Shown here piece by piece: positions 48,136 to 62,150 of a stretch of DNA of 64,000 bases. Under the pieces are notes generated by a model that saw nothing but the letters and a program-made list of their open reading frames with translations, searched no databases and was not told the DNA's origin. Position 1 is the stretch's first letter. Each line of letters opens with the position of its first letter. Origin of the DNA: Nitrosopumilus sp. K4 (GTDB taxonomy: Archaea; Thermoproteota; Nitrososphaeria; Nitrososphaerales; Nitrosopumilaceae); NCBI RefSeq assembly GCF_018128925.1, contig NZ_CP067007.1:496001-560000 (forward strand), in the 5' to 3' direction. The position numbers were made by a program, and so were the translations under genes.

Positions 48136-48348
48136 ATGGGTATTGTTTCAAAAGGAGCTAAATGCAATGTTGAAGGTTGTGATAAGGATGGCACACGTTC
48201 ACTAAATACTACTAAAGTTGAAAATGCTGGACTGCGTGTAAATTCCACAGGTAAAAAAACAGTCCTTTGTAAAGATCATTATAAAGAATACAAAAAAGAA
48301 TCTAAAGATGACCGAGATCTAGAACGTGCTAGATATGATAAATTTTAG
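48136..48348 (+). CDS. Small cysteine-containing hypothetical protein
   Basis: 70 residues from ATG 48136. Cys pair AKCNVEGCDKDG and a later LCKDHYKEY suggest a zinc finger of C2-CH type. The tail is charged (KKESKDDRDLERARYDKF). It resembles short conserved thaumarchaeal proteins; function unknown. The stop interlocks with that of deoxyhypusine synthase on TTAG (48345-48348). Confidence 0.65.
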   Translation: MGIVSKGAKCNVEGCDKDGTRSLNTTKVENAGLRVNSTGKKTVLCKDHYKEYKKESKDDRDLERARYDKF

Positions 48349-49574
48349 TTCTTTTTTACTTTCTTTAATTTACTTCTAGTAATTCCCGGAGTTTTGAAAT
48401 AATCTTTGCTAAGTTTTTCATAATACTTGTCTAGTTTTTTGTAAAGTCTCTTTGGCTTTCTTGCCTTTTGGTTACTCAGAACATACAATGCTAAAATTGG
48501 AAATGCAATAGTAGCATCCGCATAAACTGTAATCATGTCATGATGTGCATCTTGTACTTTACCCCAACTTTTTCCTTCTTGCAAAGTAGCTCCTGAAAGA
48601 CCCCCTGTGTCTGGCCTTGCATCTGTGATTTGTATTACGTAATCTTGTCCTCCGTCATCTCTTCTTAAAATCTGGTCAAGTAATGGTCCTGTTTGCTGTG
48701 CTGTGTTTTTTGGAACACCTCCTCCAAGTTCTAAGATTCCTGATTTTTTTGAATTATACAAAATTGATGCCTGCTCTATTATTTCTTTGACAAAATCCAA
48801 ACTATACACTTTGTTTTGCAGTCTATGTACTGCCAAATTTAACGCAAGTGATGAATCCTTCATTGTTGAGATGTACACTGGGACATCATATTCGTATGCT
48901 GCAGTAATAAAGCTCTTTTCTGGATGCTTTGCTTTTTCTTTACTTATTTTTCCCATCATATTACAAAATTCTGCAGTTGTAAATGGCTTGTCAGTGAACT
49001 TATCTTCAAACATTTTTTGAATAATTTGATCTTCTGCTTCTAATGTTTCATAGAATTTTATGTATATGTCTCTAATTCTAACAATTTCGTTCTCATAAAG
49101 TTTCATATCATCTACATCAAAATGCCCTTGCTTTACTGGTAATCCCCATGCAAAATGATCTTCATGATAAACATTTGCCCCTGTTGTGATAATCCAATCA
49201 ATGAATCCTCGCTCGATTAATGTTTTGATAATTCCTCCAAATCCTACTGGCGTCATTGCACCTGAAACTGTAAGGCAAATAGTTGCATCATCTTTGATCA
49301 TTTTTGCAAATAATTTCGCTGCTTCTCCTAACTGCCTTCCATTATATCCTGAACTTGCAAAAACATCTACAAGTTGCTCGATTGTCATTTTAGGGTCTAG
49401 TTTAATGTGAGGTATGTTTTTACCATGAAATTTGTGTGGGTCCACTTTGTCAAATAAAAAATCCGAGTAAATATTGCTTGTGATTGGTTTTTTAAAATTT
49501 AATTTTACACTTGAAAAATATAATGTCTTAAACCCATTTCTTCTTTCTAAAATAGCCGTATAACGCAAATGCAA
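48345..49574 (-). CDS. dys: Deoxyhypusine synthase
   Basis: Up to 409 residues. Transfers the butylamine of spermidine to a lysine of aIF5A. NAD-binding GILELGGGVPKNTAQQTGP and QITDARPDTGGLSGA; catalytic Lys in GKSWGK (near 340). Family similarity begins around KPITSNIYSDF (residue about 29). The only recognised start codons upstream are TTGs at 49574 and 49568, which lie inside the end of the CorA-like gene; the real start may be a rarer codon closer to 49500. Confidence 0.9.
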   Translation of the reverse strand: MHLRYTAILERRNGFKTLYFSSVKLNFKKPITSNIYSDFLFDKVDPHKFHGKNIPHIKLDPKMTIEQLVDVFASSGYNGRQLGEAAKLFAKMIKDDATICLTVSGAMTPVGFGGIIKTLIERGFIDWIITTGANVYHEDHFAWGLPVKQGHFDVDDMKLYENEIVRIRDIYIKFYETLEAEDQIIQKMFEDKFTDKPFTTAEFCNMMGKISKEKAKHPEKSFITAAYEYDVPVYISTMKDSSLALNLAVHRLQNKVYSLDFVKEIIEQASILYNSKKSGILELGGGVPKNTAQQTGPLLDQILRRDDGGQDYVIQITDARPDTGGLSGATLQEGKSWGKVQDAHHDMITVYADATIAFPILALYVLSNQKARKPKRLYKKLDKYYEKLSKDYFKTPGITRSKLKKVKKN

Positions 49575-51171
49575 TAACTGACATTAAAATTAGAACCAAT
49601 GGATATGCTACAGGTGATGACAATTCGGGCATATGTTGAAAATTCATTCCATATACGCCTGCCACAAATGTGATTGGAATGAAGATTGATGCAATTATAG
49701 TCAATGTTTTCATTACTTCATTCATCTTATTGCTAACACTTGATAGATAAGTGTCTAGCATTCCTCCTACGACATCTCGTAATCCTTCAATTGTATCTAT
49801 TACTTGAACAATGTGATTATAGGAATCTCTGAGATATGTTTTGGTCTCTTCTTGTATCAGCTCATTGGTGCTTCTTTGTAGATTGTCTAGTACTTCTCTT
49901 GCAGGCCAAATTGATTTTCTAAGTAAAATCATCTGCCTTTTTAGTAATTGGAGGCTTTGCAGTGTCTTTGGTGTGGGGTTTGTCATAAGTTCATCTTCTA
50001 ACCCTTCAGAAATATCACTAATTTTCTCTAACACCAAAAAATAACTGTCTACGACTGCATCAAGTAGTGCATATGTTAGATAATCACTCTTTCTTTGTCT
50101 GATTGTTCCTATGTTATCTCTTATTCTTTTTCTGATTTGTTCAAAAAAGTCTTGTTCTATCTCTTGAAAAGAAACAATGTGATCTTTAGATAATATGAAT
50201 GAAATTTGCTCCAGTTCGATTTTACCTTTTTCTTCATTAAAATGTGGCATTTTTAACATCAAGAAAATATACTCTTCTGATGTTTCAATTGATGGCCTAA
50301 GGTCTGTATTCATGATGTTTGCTTGATGTAGGGCATGTAATTCCATCGCATCTCCAAATTTTTTGATAATTTCTGGATCATGTATTCCGATTACGTTTAT
50401 CCACGATACATTGGATTTTACTTTTGATTCTAAACATCTTTCAATTGTTGTATCTTGTTCTTCAGAGATGTTTTCTTTATCATATTCGATTAAATCTATT
50501 CTGATTTTTTCAACTTTTCTTTCCCCTATGTGAACTAATTCTCCTGGTCGTAATCCTATTGTATCTGCTATTGTTGTTCTTTCTGATTTATTTTTACTGA
50601 GGATTTTTGAAATTCGTGTGATGTCACTAACTCCAAACTCCTTTGTAATTTCTGAAACTTTTGCAATTTTAGATGATACTCCAACTATGATGAACCCTGT
50701 GATTATTGAAAATATTATGCTAAAGTAAAATGGAATGAAATTTCCTTCGATTGCAGATTCATAAATTGCCTGAACATCAGCCGCTGTGTTCTGTGGGATG
50801 AATAACCCTATGATTGTATCTGTTAAGAAAAACATTACAGAAATTATTGCACCTATGACAATTGCAGTTACAATTGAAATTTTTGGCGGGATGTTGATAT
50901 TCTCTTCTTTCCTATACGGAGAGAAAAATTTTTTATTTTTTACAATCAACAAAGCTATTCCGGTTATGATGATTGTTGATATTATCCACCATGTAATCAG
51001 TAATACTCCTTCTGAATCTGCTTTTTCAAGACCTAAAAAAAGATCTGATATGTTACCTGTTAATGGAATTGACAAAATTGATGTAGCAATTGCCACTACG
51101 ATTTGATATATGAATGCAAAAAGAAATCCTATTGAGAGCCGATTAATTATAATTCCTACAGTGCTGTTCAA
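49528..51171 (-). CDS. corA: CorA-like Mg2+/divalent cation channel with extra N-terminal membrane domain
   Basis: 547 residues. Residues about 200-547 are CorA: cytosolic funnel (GLRPGELVHIGERKVEKI..., WINVIGIHDPEIIKKFG), two C-terminal helices and the pore signature YGMNF near residue 515. Residues 1-190 add four hydrophobic helices (about 10-33, 55-78, 95-118, 145-170) not found in normal CorA. An even number keeps the funnel cytosolic. The start lies 33 bases downstream of the CNNM-type gene stop... reading direction places both in one operon. Confidence 0.88.
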   Translation of the reverse strand: MNSTVGIIINRLSIGFLFAFIYQIVVAIATSILSIPLTGNISDLFLGLEKADSEGVLLITWWIISTIIITGIALLIVKNKKFFSPYRKEENINIPPKISIVTAIVIGAIISVMFFLTDTIIGLFIPQNTAADVQAIYESAIEGNFIPFYFSIIFSIITGFIIVGVSSKIAKVSEITKEFGVSDITRISKILSKNKSERTTIADTIGLRPGELVHIGERKVEKIRIDLIEYDKENISEEQDTTIERCLESKVKSNVSWINVIGIHDPEIIKKFGDAMELHALHQANIMNTDLRPSIETSEEYIFLMLKMPHFNEEKGKIELEQISFILSKDHIVSFQEIEQDFFEQIRKRIRDNIGTIRQRKSDYLTYALLDAVVDSYFLVLEKISDISEGLEDELMTNPTPKTLQSLQLLKRQMILLRKSIWPAREVLDNLQRSTNELIQEETKTYLRDSYNHIVQVIDTIEGLRDVVGGMLDTYLSSVSNKMNEVMKTLTIIASIFIPITFVAGVYGMNFQHMPELSSPVAYPLVLILMSVIAFALYGYFRKKKWV

Positions 51172-51203: not shown

Positions 51204-52223
51204 CTAAGATTTTGTCTCAGGCTGGCTTTGCTGCTTTGATTCTCCCATGATGTCTCCCACAATTTCTTCTAATAGATCCTCTATTGTGACAAGTCCCACT
51301 GTTTTGTTATTTTTATCATGCACAATTGCCATATGTAGATCCTTCTTCTTTAGTTCTACTAACAAATTACTGATTCTGTTCTTTGAATTTACAAAAAATG
51401 GTTTTCGTGCAATTTGCTTTAATTTGGTATTTTTGTATTCTTTTTCTGGTAGATGTGAGATGTCCCAAATGTGTATTATTCCTATAATGTCTTCTGATGT
51501 CTGTTCAAAAATTGGAATTCTTGAAAATCCTTTTTCTTTGATCTCTGAGATCACTTTTGATACTGTTAGTTCTCCATCAAGTGAAAAAATTTGGCTCTTT
51601 GGAGTCATTACGTCTTTGATTGGCTGATCATCAAATTCTAATGCATTTCTAACCAGTTCAAATTCTTCTTTTTCGATTGCTTTTTCTTCATATCCTAGTT
51701 CTGCCACTTCTTTGATTTCTTCTTCAGTAATTGGTCTTGGCTTTACTATGTGACCTCCAGAAAATCTCAATATTCCTCTGATGATTAACTCTAAAATTTT
51801 TACAAATGGGTACATCAAATAGGTAAATACTAAAAGCACTCCTGAAAATTTTAGTGATATTTTTTCTGGATTTACATTAGAGTATGTTTTTGGGAGAATT
51901 TCTCCAAATAACAAAATTACAAATGTCATCACTCCTATTGCTATTCCTACCCCTTGATCCCCTAGTAATTTTATTGCAACATCGGCAGCTAGTATTGAAG
52001 ATGCAACATTTACCAATGTATTTCCAAGATTTACACTGGCAGTCATCATTCCTGGATTCATCTTTAGTTTGTAAAGTGGAGATGCTCCTGGAACTTTCTT
52101 TTTGTAAAGCCTGATTACTTTTGAGCGTCTAACTCCTACGATTGCAATTTCTAAACCACTGAATAATGCATATAATCCTATGAGAATTACGATGAGAATT
52201 ATCTCAATTTGAACAAGTTCCAA
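51204..52223 (-). CDS. CNNM/CorC-type transporter (DUF21 plus CBS pair)
   Basis: 339 residues. DUF21 membrane domain with four hydrophobic segments (LVQIEIILIVILIGLYALF ... VLLVFTYLMYPFVKIL, residues 1-150), then an acidic helix, then CBS motifs (VMTPKSQIFSLDGELTVSKV, and HDKNNKTVGLVTIEDLLEEI, near 205-325). It lacks the CorC/HlyC C-terminal domain. CNNM proteins export Mg2+ or regulate Mg transport. It precedes the CorA-like gene in the same direction, suggesting a Mg-homeostasis pair. Confidence 0.88.
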   Translation of the reverse strand: MELVQIEIILIVILIGLYALFSGLEIAIVGVRRSKVIRLYKKKVPGASPLYKLKMNPGMMTASVNLGNTLVNVASSILAADVAIKLLGDQGVGIAIGVMTFVILLFGEILPKTYSNVNPEKISLKFSGVLLVFTYLMYPFVKILELIIRGILRFSGGHIVKPRPITEEEIKEVAELGYEEKAIEKEEFELVRNALEFDDQPIKDVMTPKSQIFSLDGELTVSKVISEIKEKGFSRIPIFEQTSEDIIGIIHIWDISHLPEKEYKNTKLKQIARKPFFVNSKNRISNLLVELKKKDLHMAIVHDKNNKTVGLVTIEDLLEEIVGDIMGESKQQSQPETKS

Positions 52224-52267: not shown

Positions 52268-53047
52268 TCATTGTTGAAAATATTGAGAACAAAACAACTC
52301 TAATGATTTTTCAAAATTTTTGTTTAATTTTTTGAGGTGTGATGGATCGATTATTCTTTTGGTTTCATTGAACCATGGTTTATTTAAATACAGACTCCTG
52401 TTCATCTCTATTTGTATCCATGGAATGGGATTGTTTCCGTATGTTCTTGTAATATATCCTCCTTGAAAAGGGTCGTTTAAGAAAATCTCTTTTCTTTCAA
52501 TTGAAAATGATTTTGAAATACAGTCTGCTAAAAAATTAATCATTTCGTTTGACGCTGTTTTGCCATCTTGATTTGAAATACAAAAAAGAGGCCGTTCTTT
52601 TTTGTCTCCGTCTGGAGAAATATCTGGAGCAACTGCTGCCATAGAATGACAATCCAAACATAGTTTTAGATCTTTGTCTTTGATACTTTTCAAAATTAAT
52701 TTATGGTATGGCTTGTAATATGTTTCAATCAATACTCTTCTTAATTCTTCATCTGGTTCTTTTCTTTTTGAATAAATTGGTTTTTGATAACAAGTTGAAC
52801 TTTTAATTACTCCGTCAGGATTATTTGGCGGTAAGTCTTCTGGTGCGCGATTAAGATCAACAAATGCTCTTGCAATGTCTGTCTTTATTACTTTCTTTAC
52901 TTTGTCCTTCAAATCATAAATCTCTATTACAAATGGGTCTGAATCGTTAAAGAGATCCTTGTCAGTTATGCATAGATTGTTTATGATCTCTTTTGGCTTT
53001 GTTGCTCCTCCATGTGGAATGGAAAGTAGGATTGGAAGTTTTTTCAT
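52268..53047 (-). CDS. N-formylglutamate amidohydrolase family protein
   Basis: 259 residues. PILLSIPHGG start, DIARAFVDLNRAPEDLPPNN and LCLDCHSMAAV carry the metal-binding/catalytic His and Glu/Asp residues of the PF05013 fold, and the end FQGGYITRTYGNNPIPWIQI is conserved. Known members remove formyl or similar groups from glutamate. Last of a five-gene minus-strand operon; it directly follows the GGT-like gene (one base). Confidence 0.83.
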   Translation of the reverse strand: MKKLPILLSIPHGGATKPKEIINNLCITDKDLFNDSDPFVIEIYDLKDKVKKVIKTDIARAFVDLNRAPEDLPPNNPDGVIKSSTCYQKPIYSKRKEPDEELRRVLIETYYKPYHKLILKSIKDKDLKLCLDCHSMAAVAPDISPDGDKKERPLFCISNQDGKTASNEMINFLADCISKSFSIERKEIFLNDPFQGGYITRTYGNNPIPWIQIEMNRSLYLNKPWFNETKRIIDPSHLKKLNKNFEKSLELFCSQYFQQ

Positions 53048-54679
53048 TTATATTCCTTCAGATGTTCCGTCTCTTCTTACTTCTGCTACTCCTTGAAATC
53101 CATCTTGAGTTTGACATTTCATTGTTGCATGTATTGCTCCGTGATAAAATGAAAAACGTTCTTTTTTAGAAATTTTGTAACCAATACTACTTAGATAATT
53201 GACTGTGTTTTCATTAAACCCTCCTTCTTCTATGCTTAGGATTCCTGAAATTGAACAATGAAATCGTGGTCTTTGAATTGCTTCATTCATTGGCAAATTT
53301 CCATCGATAATCCTTGATAGAAAATGGCTTATCGCAGAAAATATTCTCTGGCTTCCAGGACTGCCAATAACCATCCATAATCTGTTGTCATGAAATACTA
53401 ATGCTGGGCTTACTGAAGTCCATGGATTTGAATTTGGTCTAATATAATATGGGTGATTCATGTTTTTGTATTCAAAGGCAGACATGTAATTATTGTAAAG
53501 GAACCCAAATCCTTCCGCAGCTGCCTTTGAACCGTATGCTAATTCTATTGATTGTGTAATCCCGACTGCATTCCCATCTTTGTCCATTGTTGAAAGATGG
53601 GTTGTGTCTTCACCCCCAATATATTCTGGTTCTTCCATTGGCAGTGTTGCATCCATGTTGTTGCTAATTGATTCTGATAATTGTTTGGCAAATGATCTCT
53701 GGAGATGTAGTTTGTCTTGAATTTGATGATATGTGTGTGGATTAAATGGACGCTGAACTCTGTGTAGAAATGCTTTACGGAAAGTTTCAGCTACAAAATG
53801 ATATGATTCTGGAGATGAACTCCTAAGAAATTTTGATGGTAGGTGGTTTAACATCATTAAAACCAACAATAGTGTTCTTCCAGCTGCTGGTGGTGGAGGG
53901 GTATGAACTACAAAATGTCTGTATGCTCTATGAATTGTTGGTCTCTCTATTGGTTCTGGAATCCAAGAAAGATCTTCTTCTCTGATTAATCCTTTGTTGT
54001 TTATCATGTCTTGATGAATTTTTTTTGCAATCTGCCCGTGATAGAAAGATCGATATCCATGTGATGATACTGTTTCTAACATTTCGGCTAATTCTTCTTG
54101 AACAAATCGATCCCCGATATCATATGGCACAAGACTGTCTTTGAGAAAATATTTTGCTCCTGATTTTGATTTAACTTTGAAAAAATTTTCCAATTCTCTT
54201 ACTTGTAAATTGTGCTGAAGTTTTGTGATTTTGTATCCTCTCTTTGCAATTCTAATTGATGGGGCAACTATTTTCTGCCATTCTAATCTCCCGTATCTTT
54301 CATGCAAATACCCGATAACTGCAAGTGTACTGGGTACAGTCGTTGCTCTGTACCCTATTAACCTTGAACGTTTCTTTGAGAATCTTGATGAATTTGCAAG
54401 TGATGGTGATCTACTTGAGCCGTCAATTGCAATGGGTTTTTTGTTAATATGTAAAATGGCCATTGATTGACCTCCTATTCCTGACGCCTGAGGTTCGCAT
54501 ACACCAAGAGCTAATGCTGTGGCACATGCAGCATCGACTGCATTCCCATCTTTCTTTAGCATTTCAACCCCTGCTTTTGTTGCATCCGGGAATGCACTGG
54601 ATACAATTCCCTGTTTTGAAACTGATGCTTTTTTGTCAAGTGACGGTGTGAATGTTTTTTCTATTTTTTCAAGATTCAT
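53048..54679 (-). CDS. Gamma-glutamyltransferase-like Ntn hydrolase
   Basis: 543 residues from ATG 54679. The N-terminal half matches GGT (GNAVDAACATALALGVCEPQ, ASGIGGQSM). The autoprocessing site is GGEDTTHLSTMDKDGNAVG with nucleophile Thr359. The oxyanion loop reads GSPGSQRI instead of GSPGGSRI. No signal peptide is visible, so it is probably cytosolic, unlike secreted GGTs. It may transfer or hydrolyse gamma-glutamyl or related amide bonds. Overlaps the upstream ATP-grasp/M20 gene by 11 bases. Confidence 0.88.
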   Translation of the reverse strand: MNLEKIEKTFTPSLDKKASVSKQGIVSSAFPDATKAGVEMLKKDGNAVDAACATALALGVCEPQASGIGGQSMAILHINKKPIAIDGSSRSPSLANSSRFSKKRSRLIGYRATTVPSTLAVIGYLHERYGRLEWQKIVAPSIRIAKRGYKITKLQHNLQVRELENFFKVKSKSGAKYFLKDSLVPYDIGDRFVQEELAEMLETVSSHGYRSFYHGQIAKKIHQDMINNKGLIREEDLSWIPEPIERPTIHRAYRHFVVHTPPPPAAGRTLLLVLMMLNHLPSKFLRSSSPESYHFVAETFRKAFLHRVQRPFNPHTYHQIQDKLHLQRSFAKQLSESISNNMDATLPMEEPEYIGGEDTTHLSTMDKDGNAVGITQSIELAYGSKAAAEGFGFLYNNYMSAFEYKNMNHPYYIRPNSNPWTSVSPALVFHDNRLWMVIGSPGSQRIFSAISHFLSRIIDGNLPMNEAIQRPRFHCSISGILSIEEGGFNENTVNYLSSIGYKISKKERFSFYHGAIHATMKCQTQDGFQGVAEVRRDGTSEGI

Positions 54680-56864
54680 TTTTTGCTTCCTCGTTGGAAA
54701 GTTTTGCACATTTGTTTAAAGTAAGTGCTAATAACAACCCTCTGTCTATCAAACTATCTCGAAGAATGTGTTCGTTTGGAGTTCTATGATCACTTCCGAT
54801 TGGACCCATCGACCCAATTATTGGTTTATCGTCCATTACGTCACAAATACTGGATGTTGCAAAGCGGTGTTCTGATTTTATTTTTATTTCAGACTGCTTT
54901 GCTAATTTTTGAATTATTAAAAAAAATTGCTCTATATTATCTGTTTTTTCTACAGGCTCTCTTACAACATGTTTTAGCAAATGTGTGTCTATTTTAGAAT
55001 CTGTTTTCTTTTTTGCAATCTTTCTGATTTCTGAATCAAACATTTTCCCTTGTTCTGTGTTTGCATATCTTGATTCAAGTGACAATCTTCCGTAATCTGG
55101 TGCTTTACCAAATGATGTTTTTGCATTAAAATCTGATATCGTAATCCTAGCGTCGTGATGATCATGAGAAATTTTTTTCCATGTGATTACTTTTCTACAC
55201 ATTTCAGGTATGACGTCCTTTATAGATTCATCATGTCGTCTAACATGAATCATATCAATTTGGTATCGTGTTACTCCTGAACAAGATGTGGCGACACCTC
55301 CATTTGGAAATCCCCACTTTAGGTCCATGATGTATTTTGAATTTTCCGATATGCTGTGAACAAGTTTCTTACTATATTTGCCACCTAGAAAGTCATCTGA
55401 TGTCAATATGATTCCACACTTGATTTTTTTCAGTTTTCTAGAAAATCTCAATGACTGTAGTGCTGAAATCATAACAGCTATGCCTCCTTTACTCTCTGCA
55501 ATGCCTGAGCCAAAAAGTCGATTTCCTACCTTGTAAAACGGTGTGAAATCCTTATTGTCATACCAAGTATCTAAGTGGCTTAAAAGCAAAACATCATTTT
55601 CTTCTGCATTGTGGTTTTTCAGATATATGATATTGCCCACATCAAATTCATGATACACTTGCGAATTGAATCCTAGATGCTCTAGTCTTTTGGAAATAAA
55701 CTGACCTAACTTGTTGATGTCTTCTATGTTGGTTATGCTAGAGTTGATGTTTACCATATGTTCTAACATTTTTTCATTTGATGTTAAATGACTCCTAAGA
55801 AAACTTCTGATTATTGTCCTTAATGGTTGTGCTTCTATTTGTTCCTGGGATTCTTCTTGTGGGTGAAGATAAGATTCCCCAAAATATCTCATTGCGCCTA
55901 CTTCTAAAATTTTGTTTACTAGTGAATCGTATGTGTATCCTGCAGCTTTTGCTGCATGAAAATAAGATCCAGTAACTCCTAAACTTGCCATCGAATTTAA
56001 TTCTAAAATGTAAACTTTTCCTTCTTCATCCATTCTAATGTCGACTCGAGCGAAATCATTCAAGCCTAATTTACGAAAAGATTCTAGACAAATCTTCTTG
56101 ATTTCTTTTTTCTGATCATCTGTTAATTTTGCAGGACAGATTTTGTCCAATGGGCTACTTTTTTTTTCAGTAATTGTTTGAATCTTGTTTGGATCCCCTC
56201 CTAAATCGATTTCTACAATTGGTAAAATCTCTACATTGGAACCGTTTCCTAGCAATCCTACTGCAAATTCTCTTCCTGGTATGAATTGTTCTACTAGAAT
56301 ATCTTGTGAAAATTTTTCTATCTGTTTTGCAACCGCTTCTCTGAGGTCTTTCCAGTTATCTACAACTTCCATTCCCATTGATGTTGATTCCATTTTTGGC
56401 TTTACAATCACGGGAAAAATTAGATCTTCATATTGATCATCTGGAGTGGAAAACACCCAAAAACCCGGCGTAGGAATATTGTTCTTTTGGAGCACAATTT
56501 TTGTCATTACTTTATCTTGTACAACTGCATGTGTTTCAGGGCCTGAACCGACATAAGGTATTCCTAACATTTCAAGCATTGCTGGAACATGAGTGTAACG
56601 GTTTTGTCCTTGAATTCCATATGCCATATTGAATACCATTCCTGGTCTTTCACCTGTAACGACTCTTGGCATGAAATCCTTCATCTCGTCAATGAAATTC
56701 ATTCCTCCTTCGATTATTTTGACAGAGTGTCCTCCTTTTTCTAATGCTTTTGCAACTTTTTCCACTGTTTTTGGACTATAGTGTTCTTTTGTCATCATTC
56801 CGAAAACATTGATGACATCATTTTCATCAATAGTTTTTTTGTTATACACTATAGCTATTTTCAA
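54669..56864 (-). CDS. Fusion: D-Ala-D-Ala-ligase-like ATP-grasp plus M20 peptidase
   Basis: About 731 residues from TTG 56864 (MKIAIVYNKK). Residues 1-325 are an ATP-grasp of the Ddl type: PYVGSGPETHAVVQDK, PVIVKPKMESTSMGM, and the metal-binding VYILELNSMASLGVTGSY. Residues about 345-731 are an M20 domain with metal-site remnants SHLDTW, GIAESKGG (E for the usual D), TSDD (for EE) and DHRTPNEH. Ligase and hydrolase in one chain suggest making and trimming a peptide-like bond. Archaea lack peptidoglycan, so cell-wall use is excluded. Adjacent GGT and FGase homologues imply a common pathway. Confidence 0.82.
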   Translation of the reverse strand: MKIAIVYNKKTIDENDVINVFGMMTKEHYSPKTVEKVAKALEKGGHSVKIIEGGMNFIDEMKDFMPRVVTGERPGMVFNMAYGIQGQNRYTHVPAMLEMLGIPYVGSGPETHAVVQDKVMTKIVLQKNNIPTPGFWVFSTPDDQYEDLIFPVIVKPKMESTSMGMEVVDNWKDLREAVAKQIEKFSQDILVEQFIPGREFAVGLLGNGSNVEILPIVEIDLGGDPNKIQTITEKKSSPLDKICPAKLTDDQKKEIKKICLESFRKLGLNDFARVDIRMDEEGKVYILELNSMASLGVTGSYFHAAKAAGYTYDSLVNKILEVGAMRYFGESYLHPQEESQEQIEAQPLRTIIRSFLRSHLTSNEKMLEHMVNINSSITNIEDINKLGQFISKRLEHLGFNSQVYHEFDVGNIIYLKNHNAEENDVLLLSHLDTWYDNKDFTPFYKVGNRLFGSGIAESKGGIAVMISALQSLRFSRKLKKIKCGIILTSDDFLGGKYSKKLVHSISENSKYIMDLKWGFPNGGVATSCSGVTRYQIDMIHVRRHDESIKDVIPEMCRKVITWKKISHDHHDARITISDFNAKTSFGKAPDYGRLSLESRYANTEQGKMFDSEIRKIAKKKTDSKIDTHLLKHVVREPVEKTDNIEQFFLIIQKLAKQSEIKIKSEHRFATSSICDVMDDKPIIGSMGPIGSDHRTPNEHILRDSLIDRGLLLALTLNKCAKLSNEEAKNES

Positions 56865-56933
56865 CACAATCAAAAGTTGAAACAAGTTAAAAAACTAATC
56901 TGTATACTTGCTTTTTCTATACATTGTCATACA

Positions 56934-57734
56934 CTAGGAAATTTTGAATAATTCTTTTGCATTTTTGTACATAAATCTGTCGCGGTATTCTTTTTTGATT
57001 TTTAATTTTGCAACAAAGTTAAGGTATGAATCCATACTGCTTATTGGCCAGTCTGTTCCGTAGAGCAAGTATTTTGGTTCTCCTGCATAATTTATCAATT
57101 CTGCAACTTTTTCTTTGATCATCTTCTCAAAAAAGTGATCAAAAGAACCTACTACTAATCCTGAAACATCTGCAAAAACATTTTTGTTTTTGTAAATAAC
57201 TTCTTGTGCATCTTGAATCCATGGATTTCCTAGATGACACATTACCATTTTTAATTCGGGATTGTCTACAGCTACTTCGTCAAGATTTAATGGTCTTGCA
57301 AAGCGTAATTTTCCTTTTTCAGAATACGTATCACCTGTATGAAACATTACTGGAATACCAAATTCGATACATGTGTCATAGACTCTCTGATAACGTTCAT
57401 CATATGGGTAATAATGTTCATACCCTGAGTATATTTTCAGTGCTTTGATTTTCCCATCCTTGATCCATTTTCTATAGTTTCTAAAATCCTCATCAGTGTG
57501 ATTGTCGATTGTTACGCCAGCAGCAACGCCTAGGTTATCATATTTTTTTATGGAATCAATGATTTGTTTTGTTGATGGCCTTTCTGAATTTACTTTGTAT
57601 GATGATAAAATTATGGCATAATCTACATTATTGCTTATCATTTCTGTTTGGAGCATCTCTAGTCTTTCCTCTAATGTGGGAATGTTTTGAAGCAATTCGT
57701 ATTGATTTACATGCACGTGACAATCAATGATCAT
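56934..57734 (-). CDS. Metal-dependent amidohydrolase (amidohydrolase_2 / TIM-barrel)
   Basis: 266 residues from ATG 57734; an upstream start at 57761 would overlap the GNAT gene further. HxH metal site in IIDCHVHV at the start, His in PVMFHTGDT, His in MVMCHLGNPW, Asp in LLYGTDWPI. This is the PF04909-type fold of decarboxylases and lactonases. ATGA-type overlap (57731-57734) with the GNAT gene indicates coupling. The substrate is probably a carboxylate or amide from the same pathway as the neighbours. Confidence 0.85.
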   Translation of the reverse strand: MIIDCHVHVNQYELLQNIPTLEERLEMLQTEMISNNVDYAIILSSYKVNSERPSTKQIIDSIKKYDNLGVAAGVTIDNHTDEDFRNYRKWIKDGKIKALKIYSGYEHYYPYDERYQRVYDTCIEFGIPVMFHTGDTYSEKGKLRFARPLNLDEVAVDNPELKMVMCHLGNPWIQDAQEVIYKNKNVFADVSGLVVGSFDHFFEKMIKEKVAELINYAGEPKYLLYGTDWPISSMDSYLNFVAKLKIKKEYRDRFMYKNAKELFKIS

Positions 57735-58381
57735 TTCTCTATAAAACGTGGATTTTTCCATTCAATAAAAGTTGCATAGTTTAATGATCTGGGATCTTTC
57801 AAATAGTTGGGAAGAATTTTGATAAATTTAAAGCCATTTCTAAGTTGAAATGATAACACTGGTTCTTTTATCTCTCTACGTTTGACTTTTTTTACATATT
57901 CTGTTGGTGAAAGATCTTTTGCAAAATTACAATAATTAAAGATTCTACCACCAGCAATAATTCTTCGCAAATTCAATTTTATGGCAAGATCTTTTCTTGC
58001 ATTGTACAATTTTGTTGCAACTCCTAATCTTCTATAATCTGGATGTGTTGATACATCTGCTCCATAAAGAGAATCTCCTTTAGGATTGTGGTTCTTGAAC
58101 TTGCTATTTCCACATGCTTGTATCCATGTGTGTTCTTTGTATTCTGGTTCAAATTTTACAATCAAGCTACTGCATGAGCCTATGATTTTTCCGTGGTATT
58201 CTGCAACAAATTGCCCTTCAGGAAATATTTTGAGGTGTTCTTTTAGTTGTTCTGGTTTCCAGTATACTCCTTCTGCTGCCATTTGGGGAAATGATGCTTT
58301 TTGTAATTCTACAATGTATGGAATGTCGTCTAAGGTCATAGTGCGAATTTTTACGGTGCTTTCACGAGTTTTACTTGACAT
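57731..58381 (-). CDS. GNAT-family acyltransferase
   Basis: 216 residues. Acetyl-CoA-binding motif is DVSTHPDYRRLGVATKLYNA (near 110-130), followed by LNLRRIIAGGRIFNY and VLSFQLRNGFKF. This subtype is commonly fused to a carbon-nitrogen hydrolase (nitrilase) domain in bacteria and archaea, but here the chain ends after the GNAT part. First gene of the five-gene operon and probably its promoter-proximal member; an AT-rich inverted repeat lies at 58456-58473 upstream. Confidence 0.85.
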   Translation of the reverse strand: MSSKTRESTVKIRTMTLDDIPYIVELQKASFPQMAAEGVYWKPEQLKEHLKIFPEGQFVAEYHGKIIGSCSSLIVKFEPEYKEHTWIQACGNSKFKNHNPKGDSLYGADVSTHPDYRRLGVATKLYNARKDLAIKLNLRRIIAGGRIFNYCNFAKDLSPTEYVKKVKRREIKEPVLSFQLRNGFKFIKILPNYLKDPRSLNYATFIEWKNPRFIEK

Positions 58382-58888: not shown

Positions 58889-60223
58889 ATGGATATCGTT
58901 TCTTTCAAACATCCTATCCCTCAGATCACCTATCTAGTCAAAAAAAAACTGTGGGCACAAGTAATCCTTGCCTTGTTTTTAGGACTTGTTCTGGGTGTTG
59001 TCTTGGGTCCAGAGGCAGGATTTGTTGAAAAAGAAACAGCTGAACTAGTGACTGATTGGTTATCCATACCTGCCAATCTCTTTCTAAAGGTGATTCAAAT
59101 GATTATTGTTCCCCTTATTTTTGCATCTATTATTCGCGGTCTTACTTCCTCAGGTAGTCTAGAACAATTACAAAAACTTGGCCTTGGTGTTGCAATTTAT
59201 TTTGTTATTACCACTGCTATTGCCTTAACAATTGGAATCACTGTTGCGACAACAATTGCCCCTGGAAACTTTATTGATAGTGAACTTATTAGAGAAAGCT
59301 TTGATTTGCAGGATGTTGAGGTTATCGAACACACCGAACTTTCACTACATGATATTCCGCAAAGCATTGTTGGGATAATTCCTAGCAACCCTCTGGCATC
59401 ATTCATGTCTGGAGAGATGATGAGCATCATTGTCTTTGCGTTGATCGTTGGTGTCTCTATGATCACTTTGCCTTCTAAAAGCTCAAAACCTATTCTTGAC
59501 TTACTGGAGTCTGTCCAAAACATCACCATGAAGGTGGTATCATGGGCCATGCGTTTGGCGCCGTTTGCCGCATTTGGTTTGATGGCGGGGATTACATCAA
59601 AAGTTGGACTGTCTGCACTAACTGGACTAGGAGCTTATATGGTAACTGTGGTTGTAGGGTTGTTTATCATGATGTTAGTCTACATAATCATTATCAAATT
59701 TCTTGCAAAACGACCTTTGTCATCTACACTTGCAATAATGAAAGAACCACAACTGCTAGCATTTTCAACATCTAGTTCTGCAGCTGTGATGCCCGTATCT
59801 ATCAAAACAGCTGAAGAAAAGATGAATGTCAAGCCAAAAGTATCTCAATTTGTAATTCCGCTTGGAGCCACAATTAACATGGATGGGACCGCCTTGTATC
59901 AGATCATCGCTGTCTTTTTTTTGGCACAATTATTTGATATCAATTTGGGTTTTACTACCATCATTCTCATTTCCTTGACTGCCCTTGCAGCATCCATAGG
60001 TGCTCCTTCTGCACCTGGAACTGGAATTGTTATTTTGTCTACTATCTTGATTGCCGCTGGGGTGCCTCCTGTTGGTGTTGTGCTTTTGCTTGGTGTTGAC
60101 AGAGTTTTGGATATGACTAGGACCATGGTCAATGTAACTGGGGATTTGACTGCGTGTCTTTTCTTTGATAGGCGAACTAAAGATAAAGACCTTCCAGAGG
60201 TCAAAAAACCTGCGTCTGATTAA
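58889..60223 (+). CDS. Dicarboxylate/amino acid:cation symporter (DAACS family)
   Basis: 444 residues, about eight membrane helices and two hairpins. The serine-rich hairpin is FSTSSSAAVMPVS (near 291-303), NMDGTALYQ binds Na+/substrate, and SIGAPSAPGTGIV is the second hairpin. Related to GltP/DctA. It would import C4-dicarboxylates or glutamate/aspartate by Na+ or H+ symport, which is notable for a mainly autotrophic lineage. Monocistronic with its own promoter region 58774-58888. Confidence 0.92.
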   Translation: MDIVSFKHPIPQITYLVKKKLWAQVILALFLGLVLGVVLGPEAGFVEKETAELVTDWLSIPANLFLKVIQMIIVPLIFASIIRGLTSSGSLEQLQKLGLGVAIYFVITTAIALTIGITVATTIAPGNFIDSELIRESFDLQDVEVIEHTELSLHDIPQSIVGIIPSNPLASFMSGEMMSIIVFALIVGVSMITLPSKSSKPILDLLESVQNITMKVVSWAMRLAPFAAFGLMAGITSKVGLSALTGLGAYMVTVVVGLFIMMLVYIIIIKFLAKRPLSSTLAIMKEPQLLAFSTSSSAAVMPVSIKTAEEKMNVKPKVSQFVIPLGATINMDGTALYQIIAVFFLAQLFDINLGFTTIILISLTALAASIGAPSAPGTGIVILSTILIAAGVPPVGVVLLLGVDRVLDMTRTMVNVTGDLTACLFFDRRTKDKDLPEVKKPASD

Positions 60224-60602: not shown

Positions 60603-60944
60603 ATGAACATAATCGACTTACATAACCCTAGCAGAATAGATAAAATGCCTGATGCAGTCAAAGTACTTTTTTCATCAGGGGATTTCAAGCAAGAAGGTTT
60701 CACTGTTAAAAAAGTTGAATTGCGACACTATGTTGAAAAAAATAACGATAAACTAGGGCCTTATTCTCTAATAACTTCGTTTGTTGAAACTGACAAGGGG
60801 ACAATCGAGATGCTTTACGATGAAGGATTTCGTGGAGAGGATGCGCTAAACAGAACCGTCACTTTTTTGGTTTCTAATTTGGGTGTGTCTGGTTTGATTT
60901 TACGTGCCCTGATTTCTCTAAAAGAACACCTTGAAAACTCATGA
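60603..60944 (+). CDS. Hypothetical protein
   Basis: 113 residues, soluble, mixed alpha/beta (VKVLFSSGDFKQEGFTVKKV, LITSFVETDKGTIEML). No family is recognised. It directly follows the rhodanese-like gene (60602/60603), so the two are coupled. Its stop interlocks with that of the convergent antiporter on TCATGA (60939-60944). Confidence 0.6.
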   Translation: MNIIDLHNPSRIDKMPDAVKVLFSSGDFKQEGFTVKKVELRHYVEKNNDKLGPYSLITSFVETDKGTIEMLYDEGFRGEDALNRTVTFLVSNLGVSGLILRALISLKEHLENS

Positions 60945-62150
60945 TTCTGATTTGAATGAATTTCTGACTAGGATAGGGGCTATGAATATTGTTGCCATTA
61001 TGACAAAAATAATTGTAGAATAAATCTCGTCTGAAATAACGCTAAATGTAAGTCCAATTCCTGCTACGATAAATGCTACTTCTCCTCTTGGGATCATTCC
61101 GTACCCTATTCGTAATCCGCTTTGCTTACTCCTCAATAACACAGCTGCTGGAATTCCGCATCCTGCAATCTTGGAAAATACGCCTACTGCCAAAATCACT
61201 CCAAATAATATCCAGTTGATGGATGGTATCAGTGAAACGTCTACATGTGCACCGATTAACGCAAAAAATAACGGCGCAACGATAATCTTGAGTCTGTCTA
61301 CAAACCCTCTTACTTGTATGGCAAGTTTTGAGCCTGCTAGACCCATTCCTGCCGCAAATGCTCCTACGATTGGATTGAGTCCTACACTTGCAGCAATAGC
61401 TGCCAAACCAAACGCTGACCCTAAAGCCACTCCTTGTTTTGTAGCTCTTGCTTCAAGTGTTCTTGGCGAAGTTTGAGCTACTGCATGAACAATCTTTGGT
61501 AGTAAATACACTGCGGCAAGCAAAATCAAAAACCAAAATCCTATTTCTGTAACTGTTGTAAAGATTACAGATTCAATTGTTGGAATTGTTTTTAATGTTA
61601 TCAAAGATATTATTGCCGAAAGAATTGCAAGCCCTAACACATCATCTAGTACTGCTGCGTTTACCAGGATGTTACCTTCCTTTGATTTCTCTTTTCCTAT
61701 CTCTTCTAAAATGACAACTGAAATTGCAATACTTGTTGCACTCATCGTTGTCCCAACAATTATTGCAACTGTCCATTCAAGTCCCATCCAAATTGAAACG
61801 AAATATCCCAAAACAAGTGGGATTACTACTCCGCATATTCCGATTATTGCAGATTTTGGTCCTGCCTTGATCAAATCATGAAATGTGAAATGAAGTCCCG
61901 CTGAAAACAAAATTATGATTCCGGAAATTTGCCACAATCCCATCATCATTGCATTTAGTTCTACTATGGGTTTTCCAAAAATTGGTATTACTCCGCCTAA
62001 TGCAGTGGGGCCTAAAATAATCCCTGCTGCAACAAATCCTATAATTTCTGGAATTTTTAGACGTGTACATAACTTTCCTAAAAGTAGTGCGGGAATGACC
62101 AAAAACAGTACCCCTATGATTGTGGGTACTACATCAAAATCTGACACCAT
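60939..62150 (-). CDS. CPA2-type cation/proton antiporter (KefB-like)
   Basis: 403 residues, about 12-13 hydrophobic helices. GFVAAGIILGPTALGG, TMSATSIAISVVILEEIG and AVLDDVLGLAILSAI (ND/DD-type ion-binding motif near 160) are typical of the Na+/H+ exchanger fold. No C-terminal RCK/TrkA-N domain. Likely role: Na+/H+ or K+/H+ exchange for pH and salt homeostasis in a marine cell. Confidence 0.9.
   Translation of the reverse strand: MVSDFDVVPTIIGVLFLVIPALLLGKLCTRLKIPEIIGFVAAGIILGPTALGGVIPIFGKPIVELNAMMMGLWQISGIIILFSAGLHFTFHDLIKAGPKSAIIGICGVVIPLVLGYFVSIWMGLEWTVAIIVGTTMSATSIAISVVILEEIGKEKSKEGNILVNAAVLDDVLGLAILSAIISLITLKTIPTIESVIFTTVTEIGFWFLILLAAVYLLPKIVHAVAQTSPRTLEARATKQGVALGSAFGLAAIAASVGLNPIVGAFAAGMGLAGSKLAIQVRGFVDRLKIIVAPLFFALIGAHVDVSLIPSINWILFGVILAVGVFSKIAGCGIPAAVLLRSKQSGLRIGYGMIPRGEVAFIVAGIGLTFSVISDEIYSTIIFVIMATIFIAPILVRNSFKSES

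Follow-up and report, generated by a model that had tools for sequence, protein, structure and literature searches.

A three-gene unit that is inherited together and recurs across bacteria and archaea was identified in Nitrosopumilus sp. K4, within a window of 64,000 nucleotides (bases 496001-560000 of the complete 1,645,909-bp genome). It encodes a fusion of a Ddl-like ATP-grasp ligase with an M20 domain resembling carboxypeptidase G2 (CPG2), a gamma-glutamyltranspeptidase-like Ntn hydrolase (GGT) and a hydrolase of the N-formylglutamate amidohydrolase family (FGase), and is preceded by genes for a GNAT acetyltransferase and an amidohydrolase (AMH). An earlier sequence-only reading had described these five minus-strand genes under the same names; the coordinates agree and Pfam backs every name. 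The best explanation, to which we give a probability of about 0.45, is that the trio, with GNAT-AMH as an optional accessory, is a cytoplasmic module that produces a small peptide-like solute for salinity or osmotic adaptation and also turns it over. The solute is proposed to be N-capped or amidated.

Co-occurrence was analysed in 121 genomes of the family Nitrosopumilaceae. The fusion was found in 22 of these and GGT in exactly the same 22 (Fisher 1e-24). FGase was present in 21 of the 22 and in no other genome, and the locus of the exception stops at a contig border. As Fisher values ignore phylogeny they are descriptive here, and a stronger argument comes from the genera that contain both states (g1, g11, g15 and g18), where fusion, GGT and FGase were gained or lost jointly. 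This all-or-none pattern holds even where the trio lies on two contigs. The co-inheritance of the three exceeds chance, and these last three genes are the core unit.

GNAT and AMH are a strict pair of their own, adjacent in 30/30 AMH loci examined. The pair occurs in 31 genomes, 13 with the fusion and 18 without it, and this rules out a single five-gene operon. The expectation that the genes are conserved together thus holds for fusion, GGT and FGase but not for the five as a unit: the order of the trio recurs in other genomes, whereas GNAT-AMH stands beside it in some genomes only. The pair is close to the trio in the window and at loci L035, L040, L155 and L157, and lies approximately 1 kb from GGT in L059 and L061, a repeated proximity that makes it an accessory and not a chance neighbour. 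The genes of L040 and L155 run GNAT-AMH-fusion-CorA-GGT-FGase; in L040 an ion channel, c4, is also inserted between CorA and GGT.

The junctions in the window divide the genes in the same way as the comparative data. GNAT and AMH overlap by 4 bases (ATGA), fusion and GGT by 11 bases (ATGAATCTTGA), with GGT starting at the ATG at 54679 and not at an upstream GTG, and the TAA stop of GGT directly abuts the ATG of FGase. The tight packing reported earlier is therefore correct for these junctions, but a gap of about 66 bp between the AMH stop and the start of the fusion (GTG 56867 or TTG 56864), which had gone unmentioned, splits the run into two plus three. Nor does the same-strand run end at 52268, as had been supposed, since CNNM follows after 44 bp and CorA after a further 32 bp.

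Three loci carry apparent copies or remnants of core genes. In L046 (G070:C9) three GGT genes of the module type surround the fusion, and at G091:C1:922471-924094 a second GGT copy, broken by frameshift or stop, adjoins FGase. At G033:C10:30957-31115, immediately upstream of GGT-FGase, 53 codons match the N-terminus of the fusion, with an intact fusion on another contig; they are probably what is left of a fusion gene that was duplicated or relocated.

The trio is spread across bacteria and archaea and is not specific to thaumarchaea. Of the 176 relatives found by scanning named genomes, 80 were kept; lineages were assigned where possible from named isolates or complete genomes. A full-length fusion followed by GGT and then FGase, mostly with 4-base overlaps, was found in Nitrospinaceae, Nitrosomonas (including N. 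aestuarii Nm36), Binatia, Chloroflexi and ANME-2c, although in Nitrosomonas L205 and the end-truncated loci show only part of the trio. Tree-distance correlations among fusion, GGT and FGase were 0.83, 0.73 and 0.80. The spread is ancient, and the scattered placement of Nitrosomonas sequences, at three or more separate points among those of the Nitrospina type, suggests from the trees that the three-gene unit has also been transferred horizontally. No description of the three-gene set was found in the literature searched; the amidoligase survey of Iyer et al. 2009 lay outside that search, so a mention there is possible.

The fusions on five bacterial contigs from metagenome-assembled genomes (L144, L152, L175, L179 and L182) group with other lineages, several of them inside Nitrosopumilus or Nitrospinaceae. 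These are likely to be mis-binned contigs or very recent transfers. Some genome labels, namely Planctomycetota OFTM43, KSB1 CS3-K085 and Woeseiaceae OFTM48, appear to be mis-binned.

The fusion matches Dala_Dala_lig_C strongly (6e-34) and Peptidase_M20 weakly (25.1 bits vs a cut-off of 24.6). An AlphaFold2 model built from 46 sequences had a mean pLDDT of 86 and a pTM of 0.56, the orientation of the domains being uncertain; it replaced an earlier 21-sequence model in which the ATP-grasp half reached only pLDDT 69. A Foldseek search with the newer model matched the ligase half to DdlB (1iow, TMt 0.83) and the C-terminal half to CPG2 (1cg2, TMt 0.77).

In an alignment of homologues the ATP-site residues K119, K156, E193, D276, E289 and N291 are invariant, as is E28, the equivalent of Ddl E15. 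The ligase half thus has the ATP-grasp fold with conserved ATP/Mg residues, and these features and the glutamate are what it has in common with Ddl and Van ligases. It falls under every curated Ddl cut-off (163 bits vs 243; 162 for a Nitrosomonas homologue) and the substrate motifs differ, NTxPGMT being replaced by NSMASLG and HGxxGEDGxxQG by YGIQGxxRYTHxPA. Unlike Ddl and Van, it is also fused to an M20 half. The host belongs to a family without peptidoglycan, in line with the sequence-only reading, and a role as a cell-wall ligase is disfavoured.

The C-terminal half shares the fold of CPG2 and other M20 peptidases, but the metal and catalytic residues of CPG2 are gone in 75/75 homologues. 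In the window protein D141 is replaced by E458, E175 by D492, E176 by F493, E200 by K517 and H385 by R695, and the HxD aspartate is retained. None of the 75 homologues has E at the E176 position or D or E at the E200 position; the D141 position is D in 3, the H112 position H in 47 and the E175 position E in 16. As a control, an intact M20 protein from the same genome aligned with the canonical residues. The M20 half is therefore, judged from its residues, a pseudo-enzyme. This rules out a bifunctional ligase-peptidase, and the earlier picture of a ligase joined to a peptidase is misleading. The dead half may instead serve in substrate binding or dimerisation, and the protein is a clear example of a peptidase that has died but is retained within a biosynthetic ligase.

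GGT resembles gamma-glutamyltranspeptidase in fold, in its GSPG motif and in the autocleavage and catalytic threonine, this N-terminal residue of the small subunit (Thr359) being kept in 61/61 sequences. It differs in that the residues which bind the alpha-carboxylate and amine of the gamma-glutamyl group are replaced: E. coli R114 by S, N411 by E and Q430 by Y in 60/61, and the D433 position by A, S, C or N in 58/61. The exception in the pocket survey, a second GGT in L186, is canonical and signal-bearing and serves as an internal control. No signal peptide is apparent on the window GGT, whose 23-residue N-terminus has no hydrophobic stretch, and the protein scores below the NCBIfam GGT cut-off (348 vs 358). 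The suggestion that a gamma-glutamyl compound is made had rested on the GGT name and loses its footing with these residues. A gamma-glutamyl or glutathione-like thiol pathway is likewise disfavoured by the loss of the pocket, and no thiol-biosynthesis gene was seen as a neighbour.

FGase scores well within PF05013 (153.6 bits vs a cut-off of 28.9) and its residues H12, D64, D132, H134 and E214 are conserved. It has the family and the PHxG, DxNR and DxHS motifs in common with the N-formylglutamate deformylase HutG but misses the HutG equivalog cut-off (98 bits vs 279), and no hut genes were found among the neighbours examined. The routine annotations Ddl, M20 peptidase and GGT are misleading across the whole of this widespread family.

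The genes around the module point to ion transport and osmotic control. MscS, MgtE, CorA, CNNM, CDF and Na+/H+ exchanger genes are neighbours in unrelated lineages, with MgtE at 15, CorA at 16 and Na+/H+ exchangers at 10 of the 80 loci. MscS adjoins the module in Binatia, Nitrospinaceae, Nitrosomonas and Draconibacterium and is near it in Melioribacter. In Binatia and Nitrospinaceae the trio is flanked, on one side or the other, by an MscS-MgtE(-MgtE) block, and the gene directly upstream of the fusion is of MscS type (n45; Pfam checked for L196) in three Nitrosomonas loci. An SDF symporter, possibly an importer of precursors, lies no more than about 10 kb from the module in the window and in L040, L041, L042, L050, L149 and L155. 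Within Nitrosopumilaceae a long CorA was present in 20/22 fusion-positive vs 5/99 fusion-negative genomes, ion channel c4 in 17/22 vs 2/99 and true ectoine synthase in 7/22 vs 2/99. Many of the named hosts, such as Nitrosomonas aestuarii, Propionigenium maris, Draconibacterium aestuarii and Nitrospina, are marine or estuarine, as judged from the titles of fusion-positive hosts only.

In microbes of salt water, a ligase, acyl or amide hydrolases and, in variant loci, an amidotransferase together with GNAT are thus surrounded by genes for osmotic and ionic transport, and this is the basis for proposing a solute. Of the products named in the sequence-only reading, a small peptide-like compound acting as an osmolyte fits these neighbourhoods best. 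The ATP-grasp domain would activate a carboxylate as its acyl phosphate and couple it to a second amine, either an amino acid or ammonia. CPG2 grips N-acyl-glutamate; the dead M20 domain could similarly position an N-acyl amino-acid substrate or product, dimerise the enzyme, or do both, instead of cutting. GNAT would cap a free amine, and the GGT-like and FGase-like enzymes would deacylate or transacylate the product, so that amino acids are recovered when salinity drops.

Several points weigh against this explanation. The FGase, GGT and PF04909 families are more often catabolic, and the adjacency of GNAT-AMH to the trio is frequent but far from universal. Habitat was read from the titles of positives alone and the neighbour frequencies are raw counts. 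Mg2+ transporters are, moreover, as common beside the module as osmotic channels, so a role in wider ion homeostasis is possible.

A second type of locus, in which a class-I glutamine amidotransferase (GATase) adjoins the fusion and GGT and FGase are missing, was found in Melioribacter (L194), Propionigenium maris (L206), Draconibacterium aestuarii (L208), Bacteroidetes (L209) and Latescibacter (L168). The GATase belongs to PF00117, is GMP-synthase-like and has the catalytic Cys and His-x-Glu; none was seen at the window locus. L208 additionally contains a GNAT-CN_hydrolase (GNAT-nitrilase) fusion, to the GNAT half of which the window GNAT is 36% identical, together with CorA and two MscS genes, and in L206 an M42 aminopeptidase lies approximately 0.8 kb away.

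These loci recall the N-acetylglutaminylglutamine amide (NAGGN) locus (asnO, ngg encoding a GNAT-ATP-grasp protein, and a glutamyl aminopeptidase; PA3459-PA3461), which makes an osmolyte dipeptide amide and joins an ATP-grasp ligase, an N-acyltransferase, an amidotransferase and an aminopeptidase-type protein (PMC8070244). The likeness lies in the GATase and GNAT of the second type and in the nearby M42 peptidase of L206, and the GATase might, like AsnO in the case of NAGGN, provide the ammonia from which a terminal amide is formed. The defining features of the NAGGN locus, a bifunctional Ngg and an adjacent AsnB-type AsnO, are both missing: GNAT and ATP-grasp are separate proteins here, the ligase being Ddl-like and fused to the pseudo-M20 half, and the amidotransferase is of class I and present in five loci only. 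GGT and FGase have no NAGGN counterpart. By analogy the module would work most like the NAGGN locus, but it is not a member of that system.

The alternative that survives best, though we consider it unlikely, is salvage: the GGT-like and FGase-like enzymes would cut imported or internal N-acyl or isopeptide dipeptides and the fusion would re-ligate or detoxify the fragments, recovering nitrogen in nitrifiers. Two of the three core genes do encode hydrolases with intact catalytic residues, many hosts are nitrifiers, and the operon in the window is bordered by an SDF symporter of the kind that is found again close to the module elsewhere. Salvage does not, however, account for an ATP-consuming ligase that is kept in every locus, even the GATase loci without GGT and FGase; non-nitrifiers also carry the module, its neighbours are chiefly ion and mechanosensitive channels rather than uptake systems, and GGT has no apparent secretion signal.

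The CorA co-occurrence, and the Mg2+-type transporters of three unrelated families that adjoin the module in archaea and bacteria, would also suit a divalent-metal module, whose small peptide-like product would serve as a Mg2+ or transition-metal ligand or as a counter-ion alongside CorA, CNNM, MgtE and CDF transporters. This is rather improbable, as MscS, a voltage-type ion channel and Na+/H+ exchangers are just as typical of the neighbourhood and no metal-specific binding protein or regulator was found at the window and several bacterial loci. Modification of the envelope or of proteins, in which amino acids would be added to a surface polymer or protein by the ligase and taken off again by the hydrolases, draws on the Ddl fold being that of the cell-wall ligases and on RimK/RimB/AspA or CP_ATPgrasp/alpha-E clusters found close to the module in some Nitrospinaceae and Nitrosomonas. 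It is hard to reconcile with a module common to archaea without peptidoglycan and to diverse bacteria, with core proteins that all appear cytoplasmic, or with the absence of a glycosyltransferase or surface protein as a constant neighbour, and is given little weight. That the genes are unlinked and co-directional by accident has some truth for GNAT-AMH, which is largely independent of the other three, but is refuted for the trio by perfect or near-perfect co-occurrence and cross-domain synteny and can be set aside.

The osmotic solute proposed here may, more tentatively, represent a new class of compatible solute, N-capped or amidated and dipeptide-like, made by a Ddl-like ligase with a dead-peptidase substrate-binding module. 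It would be common to many ammonia oxidisers of the sea, both archaeal and Nitrosomonas, to the nitrite oxidisers of Nitrospina, to ANME archaea and to others, and its genes would have passed between them as a three-gene unit. The hosts include major marine nitrifiers. If the proposal is true, an amino-acid-derived solute that they share would add up to a sizeable stock of dissolved organic nitrogen and would mark their salinity niche.

Features of the window locus and its flanks (positions in the window)
Feature	Position	Strand	Evidence or remark
GNAT acetyltransferase (216 aa)	57731..58381	-	Pfam GNAT 6e-10; first gene, accessory pair
Amidohydrolase AMH (PF04909, 266 aa)	56934..57734	-	Amidohydro_2 1e-28; second gene, accessory GNAT-AMH pair
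Fusion: Ddl-like ATP-grasp ligase with C-terminal CPG2-like M20 pseudo-enzyme (732 aa)	54669..56867	-	Core gene 1
ATP-grasp domain of fusion (about residues 1-335)	55863..56867	-	Alignment of ATP-site residues
Pseudo-M20 domain of fusion (about residues 346-732)	54669..55832	-	Residue comparison with CPG2
GGT-like Ntn hydrolase (543 aa)	53048..54679	-	G_glu_transpept 2e-111; core gene 2
FGase-family (N-formylglutamate amidohydrolase-like) hydrolase (259 aa)	52268..53047	-	FGase 1e-44; core gene 3
CNNM (CorB-like) divalent-cation transporter	51204..52223	-	CNNM-type genes recur near the module
Long CorA-type protein	49528..51171	-	Associated with the module across the family
SDF-family dicarboxylate/amino-acid symporter	58889..60223	+	Divergent from the GNAT gene
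Na+/H+ exchanger	60939..62150	-	Other genomes also have members of this family near the module

In Nitrospinaceae and Nitrosomonas, further amidoligase systems are found in the vicinity of the module (L181, L183, L205 and L212, and also L188, L190 and L198). These clusters consist of CP_ATPgrasp with alpha-E, or of RimK with a RimB-like retropepsin and AspA/AstE, and in L181 the CP_ATPgrasp and alpha-E cluster is accompanied by proteasome-like and transglutaminase genes. In the window a deoxyhypusine-synthase-like gene follows CorA (48345-51171 for the two); their open reading frames apparently overlap (49528-49574), and the choice of start codon is provisional.

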